Positions 17,202-22,239 of a stretch of 53,753 bases of DNA are shown here, one piece after another (position 1 is the stretch's first letter; every line of letters begins with the position of its first letter). The DNA lies in contig NZ_CANLEA010000032.1 in the NCBI RefSeq assembly GCF_947489565.1, forward strand, positions 1 to 53,753, read 5' to 3'. The stretch is from an uncultured Kordia sp. (GTDB lineage Bacteria; Bacteroidota; Bacteroidia; Flavobacteriales; Flavobacteriaceae). The notes beneath the pieces were generated by a model. The model searched no databases and was not told the DNA's origin. It saw only the letters and a list, made by a program, of their open reading frames with translations. The position numbers and the translations under genes were made by a program.

Positions 17202-20200
17202 TTATGCTTTCGCTTCACCTTCTTCTAATCCTTTGTTGACATCTCCTTTTTTGATCGTATCATACATGATTGGAGTTGCAATAAACATCGATGAATATGT
17301 ACCTACAATTACACCAATGATTAAGGCAAACATAAATCCTCTAATAGATTCTCCACCGAAAATAAAGATCGCCAATAATACCACTAACGTAGTTAATGAT
17401 GTATTCAACGTTCTACTTAAGGTACTATTTAAGGCAGCGTTTACAACTTTGCTAAATTTCCAATTCGCATTTTCATTCATAAACTCACGGATTCTATCAA
17501 ATACAACCACGGTATCATTCAGCGAGTATCCAATTACCGTTAATATCGCGGCAATGAATGCTTGATTGATTTCCATTGTAAATGGTAAATATTTCCATGC
17601 TAATGAGAAGATTCCTAATACGATTAATACATCATGGAATACTGCAGCAACTGCTCCAAGAGAGAACTGCCATCTTCTGAATCGTAATAAGATATATAAG
17701 AATACTACTACTAACGAACCTAATACTGCCCAGAATGATGCTTTCTTGATATCATCCGCAATCGTTGGTCCTACTTTGATAGACTTCATGATTCCGACTG
17801 CTTTGTCTTCTGCTCCATCAACAAATTTTTCATAATCCATTGCTGCAGGTAAGTAAGACGCTAAACCTTGGTGTAGCTTATTTTTAATTTCGTCATCAAT
17901 ATCAGTTCCTGTTTCATTTACTTTATAGTTCGTAGTGATTTTTAACTGATTATCATCTCCAAAAGTTTTTACTTCTAACGATACTGCATTTTCTCCATCT
18001 ACAAATACATTTTGCAACGAAGCTTTAACATCTTGTGGACTTACTGTCTTTTCAAAACGTACTTGATACGAACGCCCTCCAACGAAGTCAACTCCTTGAT
18101 TTAATTTATTTCCAAGTGTAATTGACCATAAACCAATAGCAATTATAACTCCTGAAACGATGTATGCAATTTTACGCTTCTTCAAGAACTCAATATTCAT
18201 GTTTCTGAATAAGTTCTTTGTAACACCAGTAGAGAATGCTAATATTTTTCCTTTGGCAGTATACCAGTCAATTAATAATCTTGTGATAAAGATTGCAGTA
18301 AATAATGAGGTAGCAATACCGATTAATAAGGTAGTTGCGAAACCTTTAATTGGTCCTGTACCGAATAAGAATAAGATTAAAGCCGTTAAACCTGTTGTAA
18401 TGTTGGCATCAAAAATAGAAGACATTGCTCCTTTCCAGCTAAATGCATGGTTGATTGATTCTTGTAACGATTTTCCTTTGGCAAGCTCTTCTCGAACTCT
18501 TTCAAACAAAAGTACATTCGCATCCACCGACATACCAATGGTTAATACAATACCGGCAATTCCAGGTAATGTTAATACAGCTCCTAAGTTCGCTAATACA
18601 CCAAAGATTAATAAGATGTTAAACGCCAAAGCGACATCTGCAAAAAGTCCAGCTCTACCATAGTAGAATACCATCCAAACTAATACCAAAGCTAAGGCAA
18701 TTAAGAACGACATTAAACCACTGTTAATCGCTTCTTGACCCAATGAAGGTCCTACTACTTCCGATTGTAAGATTTCAGCTTTTGCAGGTAATTTACCAGC
18801 TCTTAATACGTTTGCTAAATCTTGCGCCTCTGCAATTGTAAAGTTTCCAGAGATTTCAGTATTTCCACCAGAAATTGCTCCTCTAGTTACACTTGGTGCA
18901 GAGTATACAATATTATCTAATACTACCGCAATGTTTCCATTTTCTTCATGTACTTCTCCTGTTAGCTTTTCCCACTGCTTAGCACCAATACCATTCATTT
19001 GCATGTTTACGTTTGGCTTATTGTCATTTCCATAGCTTTGTGATGCTGCATCTACTACATCACCTTTCATTTGTGGCGTAGCTTCTCTTCCTTTACGCTT
19101 TCCGCTCAATGCATACATTTGTATTCTCCCGTTTGCATCTACCTCTTTTCCAAAGGCAAAACGCACATTACGTAAGTTTGCAGGCAATACTTGCTTTAAG
19201 ATTGGATTTGCAAGTAATTTTGTAATTTCAGCTTTATCATCTTCTTTAATCGAAGCAACAACACCACCATTGTTTACTCCAACACGAGAAGGAATCATTT
19301 TACCTAATAATGGTCTAATTACATCAATAGAATCTTGCTCTGTAGAAGTAGTCAAATCTCCTAAGTCAACATCTGTAGTATCTTTTTCTTTTTCTACAGC
19401 AAATTCAGGAAGCTCCTTTAATTTTGCATCAGCTGCAGCTAAATAAGAAAGTAATTCAGCAGTATTGTTATTTGTTTTCCAAAACTCTAATTCTGCTGTA
19501 GTTTGTAATAATTTTTCAATACGAATTACATCTTTCGCTCCTGGCAATTCAATCAAGATACGTCCAGAAGTTCCTAAACGCTGAATGTTTGGTTGTGTTA
19601 CCCCAAATTGGTCAATACGCTTGTTTAATACTTCTTTTGCAGATACTACTGATTGATCTACTTTTCTTCTAATTACATTCTGAACAACATCATCTGGCGT
19701 GTTGAATGTTTCTTTCTTTAATTCTTCTTGTAAAGATGCTGTATAGAAAATACTTGGATCCGCTAATTTTAAACCTTCTGGCTTTAATTCGTCAAAAGCT
19801 CTAAAGAAAGACTCTACATAATCTTCTTGCGCATCCTTTTGTAATTCGTCAGCTCTATCTAAAGCTTTATTGAATGTTTCATTTTCTGTTTTGTTTGCCA
19901 ATCCAGAAAGGATGTCTCTTACCGAGATTTGAAGAATTACGTTGATTCCACCTTTAAGGTCTAATCCTTTGTTTAATTCTTTTTCTTTAGCCTCATCATA
20001 AGTAAACTTTGTAAATCCAAAGTTGATTGGCTCATTTCTGTTAATAGAATCTAAGTATGTTTTTTCTACAAGACTTCTAGCGTCTGCATTTTCTTTTGTG
20101 TCTGCACCTTCTGTCGGTTTCGGCACTTGCGATACCGCATAGGTTTTTGCATCTGTTTCAATTTTATTCGTGATAAATGTGAATGACAATTGGTAAATAC

Positions 20201-20252
20201 TTACCAATCCGAATAAAATCGCAAATAATTTTACGAGTCCTTTGTTCTGCAT
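17202..20252 (-). CDS. secDF: Protein translocase subunit SecDF (fused)
   Basis: The 1016-residue protein is SecD joined to SecF, as is usual in Bacteroidota. It couples proton flow to pulling exported proteins through SecYEG. The SecD DLxGG motif is GLDLKGG at about residue 95. The periplasmic P1 region runs to about 510 (VSAKEVLNKRIDQFGV, LEFWKTNNN, DNIVYSAPSVTRGAISGG, LRAGKLPAKAEIL). Six SecD membrane segments follow (about 520-680), with GIVLTIGMSVDANVLLFERV. The SecF half begins near 690 with the motif GVDFVGGRSYQV (about 722) and ends with five more membrane helices. The region between DLxGG and P1 has an acidic helical insertion typical of the group. A promoter is visible upstream. Confidence 0.97.
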   Translation of the reverse strand: MQNKGLVKLFAILFGLVSIYQLSFTFITNKIETDAKTYAVSQVPKPTEGADTKENADARSLVEKTYLDSINRNEPINFGFTKFTYDEAKEKELNKGLDLKGGINVILQISVRDILSGLANKTENETFNKALDRADELQKDAQEDYVESFFRAFDELKPEGLKLADPSIFYTASLQEELKKETFNTPDDVVQNVIRRKVDQSVVSAKEVLNKRIDQFGVTQPNIQRLGTSGRILIELPGAKDVIRIEKLLQTTAELEFWKTNNNTAELLSYLAAADAKLKELPEFAVEKEKDTTDVDLGDLTTSTEQDSIDVIRPLLGKMIPSRVGVNNGGVVASIKEDDKAEITKLLANPILKQVLPANLRNVRFAFGKEVDANGRIQMYALSGKRKGREATPQMKGDVVDAASQSYGNDNKPNVNMQMNGIGAKQWEKLTGEVHEENGNIAVVLDNIVYSAPSVTRGAISGGNTEISGNFTIAEAQDLANVLRAGKLPAKAEILQSEVVGPSLGQEAINSGLMSFLIALALVLVWMVFYYGRAGLFADVALAFNILLIFGVLANLGAVLTLPGIAGIVLTIGMSVDANVLLFERVREELAKGKSLQESINHAFSWKGAMSSIFDANITTGLTALILFLFGTGPIKGFATTLLIGIATSLFTAIFITRLLIDWYTAKGKILAFSTGVTKNLFRNMNIEFLKKRKIAYIVSGVIIAIGLWSITLGNKLNQGVDFVGGRSYQVRFEKTVSPQDVKASLQNVFVDGENAVSLEVKTFGDDNQLKITTNYKVNETGTDIDDEIKNKLHQGLASYLPAAMDYEKFVDGAEDKAVGIMKSIKVGPTIADDIKKASFWAVLGSLVVVFLYILLRFRRWQFSLGAVAAVFHDVLIVLGIFSLAWKYLPFTMEINQAFIAAILTVIGYSLNDTVVVFDRIREFMNENANWKFSKVVNAALNSTLSRTLNTSLTTLVVLLAIFIFGGESIRGFMFALIIGVIVGTYSSMFIATPIMYDTIKKGDVNKGLEEGEAKA

Positions 20253-20286: not shown

Positions 20287-20317
20287 CAAATATATCATTT
20301 ACCGTCATATTTGACAA
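20287..20317 (-). promoter_or_regulatory. Promoter for secDF
   Basis: On the minus strand TATATTTG (20294-20287) is a perfect -7 box. TTG (20317-20315) lies 20 bases upstream of it. The predicted start of transcription is about 25 bases before the secDF ATG at 20252, so secDF can be expressed independently of the genes upstream. Confidence 0.6.
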
Positions 20318-20474: not shown

Positions 20475-21110
20475 TTAGGAAAGTGTAGTTGTAGAAGGTC
20501 CTGCGCGAACATCAGGAATTTCATAAGGTGTGTTTTCTTTAAAAATTACCGTATAGCCAGATTCGCTATAGGTTAATGCTATTGAAATGGTATTCACATC
20601 TCCAGCAATAAACGAATTGGCATTCGCAAATGAATTTGGAGATGGAGATTTATCGAATTCTTTTTGTAAGTCTAAAATGAATTTTCCATGCGTACCAAGA
20701 AATGAATCGGCAGTCGTTTTTAACTCGTAGATATCTAACTTATAGCTATCAACTGTAGCATACGCTTGAAAATTTTCTGTTTGATCTTCTGTTGGTATTT
20801 GTGGCAATTGCTTTTTGGAAGCAAAACCTTTTTCCACTAGAAGCTCTTTGATTGCTGATACATCTTCATTACTGTAATATGCAATGGCAAGCGTATCATT
20901 TGCTAATTGACGTACTTGAATATTTGCAACACCTAAAGTTTGCAACTGCTGTTTGATTGCCTGAATTACTTCCTCCGTTTGTTGAGAAACAGAAGCACCT
21001 TGCGCAAATTGAAGTTCAATTTCTTGATTTGGCGCAGGTGTTTGCTCCTTGTAAAAACCAAGCAGCGTTAAGAGGATTATTAAAGCACTAAAATACTTTT
21101 TTGCAATCAT
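20475..21110 (-). CDS. Membrane-anchored protein of unknown function, possibly SecD-P1-like
   Basis: The 211 residues begin with a hydrophobic anchor or uncleaved signal (MIAKKYFSALIILLTLLGFY). Residues about 30-95 show a beta-alpha-beta pattern (IELQFAQGASVSQQ, EEVIQAIKQQLQTLGVANIQ, VRQLANDTLAIAYYSNEDVS, AIKELLVEKGF) that lines up by eye with the SecD P1 segment EVLNKRIDQFGVTQPNIQ, GRILIELPGAKDVIRIEKLL. The second half has no recognisable domain. The gene lies between secDF and a SecD-head-like lipoprotein gene, all on the same strand. I infer an envelope protein related to protein export; the fold similarity needs profile searching. Confidence 0.6.
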   Translation of the reverse strand: MIAKKYFSALIILLTLLGFYKEQTPAPNQEIELQFAQGASVSQQTEEVIQAIKQQLQTLGVANIQVRQLANDTLAIAYYSNEDVSAIKELLVEKGFASKKQLPQIPTEDQTENFQAYATVDSYKLDIYELKTTADSFLGTHGKFILDLQKEFDKSPSPNSFANANSFIAGDVNTISIALTYSESGYTVIFKENTPYEIPDVRAGPSTTTLS

Positions 21111-21213
21111 GCGCCAAATATAAAAATAAAGAAGAGACTTACGCAGTGTTTTGGTAATTAATTTTGATTTAAGTAATTGGATTTTATCATACTATCCTCA
21201 GAAAATTTTAGTT

Positions 21214-22182
21214 TTACTGCTTGTATGACTTCAGAATACTTTCTTGTAAAATTTTCATTTTTGGAATGGAACCTGAACGAATAACTGCTGCTAAAGTTGT
21301 CGCTTGCTCCTTACTTAGATTTGATGAAATTTGAGACATTCCTCCTGTAATTTTCCCAACCGATACAGATGGAGCACTATACACCAAATTATCAACTACC
21401 ACTGCTATGTTTCCTTGATTCATATGAGCTTTCTCTGTCATTTTTTCCCAAATCTTTGCTCCTTCTTTATTTTTTTGGATACTTACCACATACGAATCAC
21501 CATAATTTGACTCTTCAGCATACGCGTCAATTACATAACTGCCATCAATAGGCGCTTTATTTTCTGAGCTTACATATACCGCATATATTTCGTGCTGATT
21601 TTCACGATTACTTTTCCCAAGCAAAAATTTAACTCTTTGTTCTAATCCATGTATTGAAACTGGTTCTTTTTTTAATAATTTTTCAATTACTATATTTTTA
21701 TTTTCTCTGGAAACCGTTGCAAAAACAGGACCTGCATAACCGCCTAACACCCTAATTCCCAGAATATCATCAACGGTTTTTATATCTTCTGTTACTTCAG
21801 AAAGCAAATCCCCTCCTTTTTGATTCCCGTGTATTTCACTCAAATAACGATAAAGGATTTCATGCTCATTACATACTTCAAAAAACTCTAATTTCCCTGA
21901 AACAGCAAAGCTTCTACGCAATTTTTGAGGTTTTATTTTCCCATGAAAATTAAACGTAACTTTTTGCTCTTCTTGCTCCGTAATAGTAATATCCTTTGCT
22001 CCGGCAGATTCCAAACGATTTTGAATATTTGCTATAGCACGCGTTTTTTCGTCTTGTGTCAAATTAGCTTCTTCTATTTGAATCTGAATACTATACGTAG
22101 GTTTATGAGAAACTGTTTCACAAGCCATTGTGATATAAATTAAGACTAAAAATAACGAACGAATAAGGTGTTTTTTATACAT
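21214..22182 (-). CDS. Lipoprotein resembling the periplasmic head of SecD without membrane domain
   Basis: The frame runs back to 22230, but that ATG lies inside the terminator hairpin of the upstream gene. The ATG at 22182 begins a lipoprotein signal (MYKKHLIRSLFLVLIYITMAC), so I use it. The mature protein aligns by eye with SecDF P1 throughout: AIANIQNRLESAGAKDITI with EVLNKRIDQFGVTQPNIQ, AVSGKLEFFEV with TTAELEFWKT, and EKAHMNQGNIAVVVDNLVYS, APSVSVGKITGGMSQISSNL, IRSGSIPKMKILQESI with the matching SecD positions. It ends where the SecD membrane helices would start. The product would be a lipid-anchored stand-alone SecD head. Function is unknown; a role beside SecDF is inference from similarity and neighbourhood. 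Confidence 0.85.
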   Translation of the reverse strand: MYKKHLIRSLFLVLIYITMACETVSHKPTYSIQIQIEEANLTQDEKTRAIANIQNRLESAGAKDITITEQEEQKVTFNFHGKIKPQKLRRSFAVSGKLEFFEVCNEHEILYRYLSEIHGNQKGGDLLSEVTEDIKTVDDILGIRVLGGYAGPVFATVSRENKNIVIEKLLKKEPVSIHGLEQRVKFLLGKSNRENQHEIYAVYVSSENKAPIDGSYVIDAYAEESNYGDSYVVSIQKNKEGAKIWEKMTEKAHMNQGNIAVVVDNLVYSAPSVSVGKITGGMSQISSNLSKEQATTLAAVIRSGSIPKMKILQESILKSYKQ

Positions 22183-22210: not shown

Positions 22211-22239
22211 AAGGCTACAATGTAGTACATTGCAGCCTT
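22211..22239 (-). terminator. Rho-independent terminator after the DUF4412-type gene
   Basis: A 12-base stem with one mismatch (22211-22222 with 22228-22239, loop TAGTA) is followed on the minus strand by TCTTTTTTCA. It lies 23 bases after the stop of the gene at 22262 and overlaps the upstream ATG (22230) of the SecD-head-like frame, which argues for the later start at 22182. Confidence 0.85.

Follow-up and report, generated by a model that had tools for sequence, protein, structure and literature searches.

In a 53,753-nucleotide stretch of DNA from an uncultured Kordia sp. of the Flavobacteriaceae (contig NZ_CANLEA010000032.1, positions 1 to 53,753; hereafter the window), we found a gene for a predicted lipoprotein that is almost certainly a copy of the P1 domain of SecD. 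The gene (21214-22182, 322 amino acids; identified by profile searches and a predicted model) lies in a conserved gene neighbourhood that also holds secDF and a gene of 211 amino acids whose product carries the motif RAGP near its C-terminus (the RAGP gene); all features of the window given here are on the minus strand. Judged by its sequence, the RAGP gene is a candidate arrest peptide and very probably originated from P1 as well. The best explanation of the whole, a P1 duplicate on a lipid anchor at the Sec exit and a RAGP monitor beside secDF, stands in our judgement evenly between right and wrong. An earlier note on the window had described a motorless P1 domain on a lipoprotein anchor, which our analysis supports as a prediction, but had overlooked the neighbouring gene with its RAGP motif and its kinship with P1. 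The action as a chaperone, adaptor or competitor and the possible link with heavy T9SS traffic that the note also put forward are conjectures.

A SecD P1 domain on a predicted lipid anchor

The open reading frame (ORF) of the lipoprotein is a real gene. Its start at 22182, chosen in the earlier note, is preferred to the mechanical start at 22230 because the longer version would contain a terminator-like hairpin (22211-22239, just 5' of the gene; hairpin scan) and the orthologues align from the shorter one. The scan found four such hairpin sites in the region, with 4.0 expected by chance. The segments from which the likeness to SecDF had been read, VDNLVYSAPSV, ITGG and IRSGSIP...KILQES, are present in the ORF, the first being the SecD signature at residues 263-273 (21364-21396), seen in the sequence, the alignment and the profile comparison. 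The proposed alignment with P1 from start to end was also borne out, as profile-profile comparison of 20 lipoprotein orthologues with SecDF P1 aligned 260 columns (E 5.6e-66) and the predicted structure (pLDDT 85.4, pTM 0.80) shows an N-terminal helix (residues 3-20) followed by the base and head domains of P1. The head (21262-21570) scored 66.5 bits with Pfam PF22599 (SecDF_P1_head; gathering cut-off 27), whereas the base (residues 28-104; 21871-22101) reached 13.6 bits with PF21760 (SecD_1st), below the cut-off of 27 when Pfam alone is considered; the base fold, ferredoxin-like in the model, is backed by the predicted structure. TIGR01129 (SecD) gave 80.6 bits over residues 53-330 of the 338-amino-acid version and NF009585 gave 112.9 bits, short of the cut-off of 244.4 and the curated cut-off of 1037, respectively. 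In phmmer searches the matches ranked below SecDF, among them several streptococcal exotoxins and nitrosocyanin, were at chance level (E >=0.21).

The membrane motor domain is missing from the protein: the ORF stops after P1, and helix 3-20 is the only one before P1 in the model. An [AGS]C pair lies within the first 30 residues in 20/20 orthologues by pattern search, where the pattern chose an earlier Cys in two (L058 and L062) and the correct one is visible in the alignment. The lipobox of the window protein is ITMAC with Thr at position -3, which is unusual, and Cys21 (codon 22120-22122), assigned from the alignment of orthologues and the lipobox rule, is the predicted lipidated residue; the lipid anchor is a prediction from sequence. 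Surface export of lipoproteins follows an acidic run after the Cys; since none is seen here, surface export is not expected.

A candidate arrest peptide related to P1 precedes secDF

The RAGP gene (20475-21110) lies directly upstream of secDF (17202-20252; 1016 amino acids, a complete motor protein by profile matches) on the same strand. Its product has an N-terminal hydrophobic helix, a P1-base-like domain, a degenerate P1-head-like part and a tail ending in IPDVRAGP and six further residues, with RAGP at residues 202-205 (codons 20496-20507; sequence and alignment). RAGP was found in 16/16 members of a first alignment, 80/80 named loci and 19/19 members of a further set, these sets overlapping, and the gene is present in 128 of 299 family genomes and 87 of 203 genera. 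The named loci came from a scan with a single peptide pattern, PNQEI[EVL]LQ, from which 80 of 91 loci were kept, the record of the window genome being outside the set; because this pattern differs from RAGP, conservation of the peptide reflects the selection of loci while that of RAGP does not. In a separate observation, one secDF (G373:C1:252156-255069) occupies two frames (784 and 220 amino acids) and is perhaps split.

In the available part of a 2024 survey, RQH arrest peptides are defined by RAPP-like tails on genes upstream of secDF, with an N-terminal localisation signal and a spacer of more than 30 residues (PMC10987492). The RAGP gene is such a small upstream gene with a conserved C-terminal RAPP-like motif, and its modelled helix at residues 3-18 is separated from RAGP by ~180 residues. 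It appears to fit the uDF_RQH_Flavobacteriales class by class definition, not by alignment with the tested sequence, which according to the same part of the survey stalls Bacillus subtilis ribosomes efficiently and Escherichia coli ribosomes less (PMC10987492).

The kinship with P1 was evident in profile-profile comparison of 81 RAGP-gene members with the 20 lipoproteins, which aligned 187 columns in a single colinear path (prob 98.3, E 1.7e-14). The score of 101.8 compares with at most 23.4 in 100 column shuffles (best E 0.015) and 13.1 with reversed sequence. Both the N-terminal part (3e-10) and the C-terminal part (5.6e-9) matched alone, removal of the last 13 residues left a match at 6e-12 with the end register unchanged, and residues 165-211 alone scored 40.7, where 60 shuffles reached 24.8 at most. 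A hidden Markov model (HMM) of the lipoproteins matched 81/81 RAGP-gene members at E <1e-3 (80 at <1e-5; best reversed control 0.13), and the SecDF P1 HMM matched 29/81. Run on whole genomes, the lipoprotein HMM detected the RAGP gene by its base part in 55 of the 64 genomes rescored, and in 16 by its head part, which ends near position 266. In the other direction the RAGP-gene HMM recovered the lipoprotein of the window (7.5e-9) and a single SecDF (2.8e-9). AlphaFold2 modelled residues 28-93 of the RAGP protein as strand-helix-strand-strand-helix with an extra strand at 123-129, like the P1 base.

Alternatively, the RAGP gene may be unrelated to P1, its similarity being convergence or alignment noise. 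Consistent with this, single-sequence searches gave no significant family, the modelled fold is the common ferredoxin-like one, and SecDF was not among the 50 matches listed; the shuffled, reversed and tail-less controls and the matches in both HMM directions make this alternative strongly disfavoured, to the point of being extremely improbable.

The arrest motif itself can be placed on P1. Both hhalign and a free MAFFT alignment of 72 sequences set YKIPEVRAGP over YSAPxVxxGxI, the head signature in SecD and in the lipoproteins; Y, P, V and G are shared in this register, and R-A and the final P stand at variable positions of SecD. On the simplest reading of the alignment, a P1 copy was truncated immediately behind the signature, and the motif was then tuned into an arrest sequence. 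A similar origin was considered for uDF_NAP-stop, the other Bacteroidota class of the survey (PMC10987492), and rejected on a small sample: of three short upstream ORFs from 20 regions, ending in NAP, QAP and KGP (G366, G388 and G392), none matched the HMMs of the lipoproteins, of P1 or of the RAGP gene (best E 0.043).

Occurrence of the P1 lipoprotein

The lipoprotein was found in the window genome and in 9/10 Kordia relatives. Of the 80 named loci, which had been found through the RAGP gene, 19 carry it, and in each of them it has mdh on one side and the RAGP gene on the other; their hosts are Kordia, Lacinutrix, Psychroserpens, Arcticiflavibacter, a Dokdonia bin and other Flavobacteriaceae. 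In 16 of the 19 the best BLAST hit is a lipoprotein; the other three (L076, L092 and L107) have SecDF as best hit and were included by length and alignment. The earlier note had proposed to look for orthologues beside secDF, and in 19/19 of these loci the gene lies there. Among the 299 family genomes at least 12 have a full-length lipoprotein and two more have a broken copy. Seven candidates were scored per genome here and, of the 67 genomes that had at least two matches, 64 were rescored; genomes with a single match could conceal a very divergent lipoprotein. Among plasmid records, 32 and 34 matched; none covered over 80% of the query, and the annotated matches were secD or secDF.

In a set of 80 genomes of the class, 7 others contain a short frame that matches the P1 head (eight frames, of which seven, L207-L213, were translated). 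By eye, three of these frames (L213 in G449; L208 and L209 in G471) have base and head behind a lipobox, like the window lipoprotein, and lie on contigs other than that of secDF; from this it appears that free-standing P1 lipoproteins recur and that those linked to secDF form a family of patchy occurrence. They differ from the window gene in lying apart from secDF where this is discernible, and several have no base. In a separate record (L049 3060-3881, minus strand) a lipoprotein-like ORF of 273 amino acids has a partial P1-head match near its C-terminus and is likewise not beside secDF. The statement in the earlier note that no protein of this kind was known to be described agrees with the literature, where we found no P1 lipoprotein or SecD-derived arrest peptide within our coverage (which left out most subscription journals and all preprints), but free-standing P1 heads are not confined to this gene. 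The frames of G449 and G471 also suit the idea that the P1 fold was recruited elsewhere, for example in an outer-membrane lipoprotein with a Sec-unrelated ligand; the position beside secDF in every named Flavobacteriaceae locus that has the gene speaks against it, and we consider it very unlikely.

Origin and selection

In an unrooted tree with long branches, 20 lipoproteins and 38 SecDF P1 domains were separated by a single branch (support 100/99), a pattern consistent with a single ancient duplication and many later losses; our trees are all unrooted and came with long-branch warnings. The dN/dS ratio of the lipoprotein was 0.16-0.30 in five pairs (dS >1.1 in four; 0.23 in the unsaturated pair), that of the RAGP gene 0.06-0.27 in five pairs and that of secDF 0.03-0.10 in four pairs. 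The lipoprotein is under purifying selection that is more relaxed than that on secDF.

Promoter-like boxes and hairpins

A promoter-like box, TATATTTG (21115-21122), precedes the RAGP gene, with 4 nt between its end and the start codon, and a second (20287-20294) lies 34 nt ahead of the secDF start codon; both match TAnnTTTG, which we take to be the Bacteroidota promoter consensus. A box of this type ends exactly 4 nt before the RAGP-gene start in 67/81 loci (the window and L058-L137), so that the message of this gene may be leaderless. secDF has its own promoter-like box in 54/81 loci, against 4.3 expected. The gap between the two genes spans 74-241 nt (median 185) in the 81 loci and folds on average more strongly than shuffled sequence (mean z -2.04; 52/81 below -1.5). 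A terminator-like hairpin directly precedes many lipoprotein genes, judged by eye and, for the window, by the hairpin scan. A palindrome, CTGC-N-GCAG, before the RAGP gene was considered as an operator and dropped, being present in 3 of 73 anchored loci, with a wider pattern resembling the terminator of the preceding gene.

Proposed role and alternatives

SecDF P1 is thought to hold chains leaving SecYEG. The lipoprotein would be an old SecD P1 duplicate in which a lipoprotein signal was acquired and none of the motor helices was kept. Its base, about a dozen residues from Cys21, would rest on a membrane surface, as the base of SecD does, and its head would face the periplasm. Because a lipid-anchored P1 would hold the place of SecDF P1 without proton drive, its likeliest role at the Sec exit is either to bind emerging chains passively and independently of protons or to act as a partner of SecDF, a role that we infer with a little less than even confidence. 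The RAGP gene would be a second, truncated P1 duplicate with an arrest motif in place of the YSAPxVxxG of SecD. It would stall its own ribosome, which Sec and SecDF would free by pulling the chain out, and under weak pulling it would raise secDF output. Tentatively, and with more doubt than belief, we suggest that the monitor was built from its own machine by P1 duplication and truncation, with RAGP replacing YSAPxVxxG and P1-P1 contact with SecDF or the lipoprotein supplying or tuning the pull that frees the ribosome; homotypic P1-P1 sensing is the bold part of this proposal, the origin from P1 being by itself very probable.

Next to passive binding we place the possibility that the lipoprotein is a decoy that tunes the monitor, competing with SecDF P1 for the RAGP chain or SecYEG and so setting the ease of arrest release. 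The lipoprotein shares its neighbourhood with the arrest gene, which accompanies it in 11 of 12 lipoprotein genomes, and both are P1 relatives; in G193, however, the lipoprotein is retained without a RAGP gene, and a decoy function seems fairly unlikely.

Several observations weigh against the proposed explanation. The head-like part of the RAGP protein was modelled by AlphaFold2 at low confidence. Compared directly with SecDF P1, the RAGP gene gave a modest match (prob 87, E 3.8e-6; prob 27, 7e-4 with the tail removed), and the base part alone gave no significant match to SecDF P1 (prob 4); the link to P1 thus runs mainly via the lipoprotein family. In a three-group tree the lipoproteins formed one group in 10% of bootstrap trees, so the parent copy of the RAGP gene is not fixed. 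Since promoter-like boxes precede both the RAGP gene and secDF and hairpins precede many lipoprotein genes, we speak of a neighbourhood rather than a single operon. The G193 gene (L171) lies directly before secDF; conversely, one Kordia genome (G007) has the RAGP gene and no lipoprotein, as do 117 of the 128 family genomes with a RAGP gene among the matches listed. Between mdh and the RAGP gene, the copy in G059 (L169) is split into two frames and that in G089 (L170) contains stops. Being missing from most RAGP-gene genomes and decayed in two, the lipoprotein appears dispensable. Its dN/dS is 2.5 to 8 times that of secDF in the four shared pairs.

This patchy occurrence, the two broken copies and the faster evolution would suit a fading relic, a leftover P1 duplicate with a weak role and under loss. 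The dN/dS of 0.16-0.30 and a P1 domain that is intact and well folded across distant genera argue otherwise, making a relic distinctly unlikely.

Relation to known systems

The closest known relative of the lipoprotein is the periplasmic P1 domain of SecDF (Thermus thermophilus 3aqo/3aqp; Deinococcus 5xam/5xan/5xap), from which it differs in having no motor helices, a predicted lipid anchor, a separate gene and scores below the SecD family cut-offs. The RAGP gene resembles uDF_RQH_Flavobacteriales in being a small gene upstream of secDF with an N-terminal hydrophobic segment, a long spacer and a RAPP-like motif near the end; the available part of the survey reports no overall similarity among RQH members and does not speak of a SecD origin (PMC10987492). 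Word searches of that part for paralog, duplicat, ferredoxin and SecD P1 found no mention. The arrest motif of SecM also ends in RAGP (PMC10987492), and VemP regulates secD2F2 (PMC10987492, PMC11470409). Unlike the RAGP gene, neither SecM nor VemP has a reported P1-like part in the available portions of these sources (PMC10987492, PMC11470409).

The survey, as far as available, favours repeated independent origin of arrest peptides, with no overall similarity among the RAPP-like ones (PMC10987492). In the case described here, one class seems to go back to a duplicate of the gene that it targets, and the intact P1 lipoprotein in the same neighbourhood would be a less altered relative of the RAGP gene. 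A free P1 head may also open a direct test of P1 function without the proton motor.
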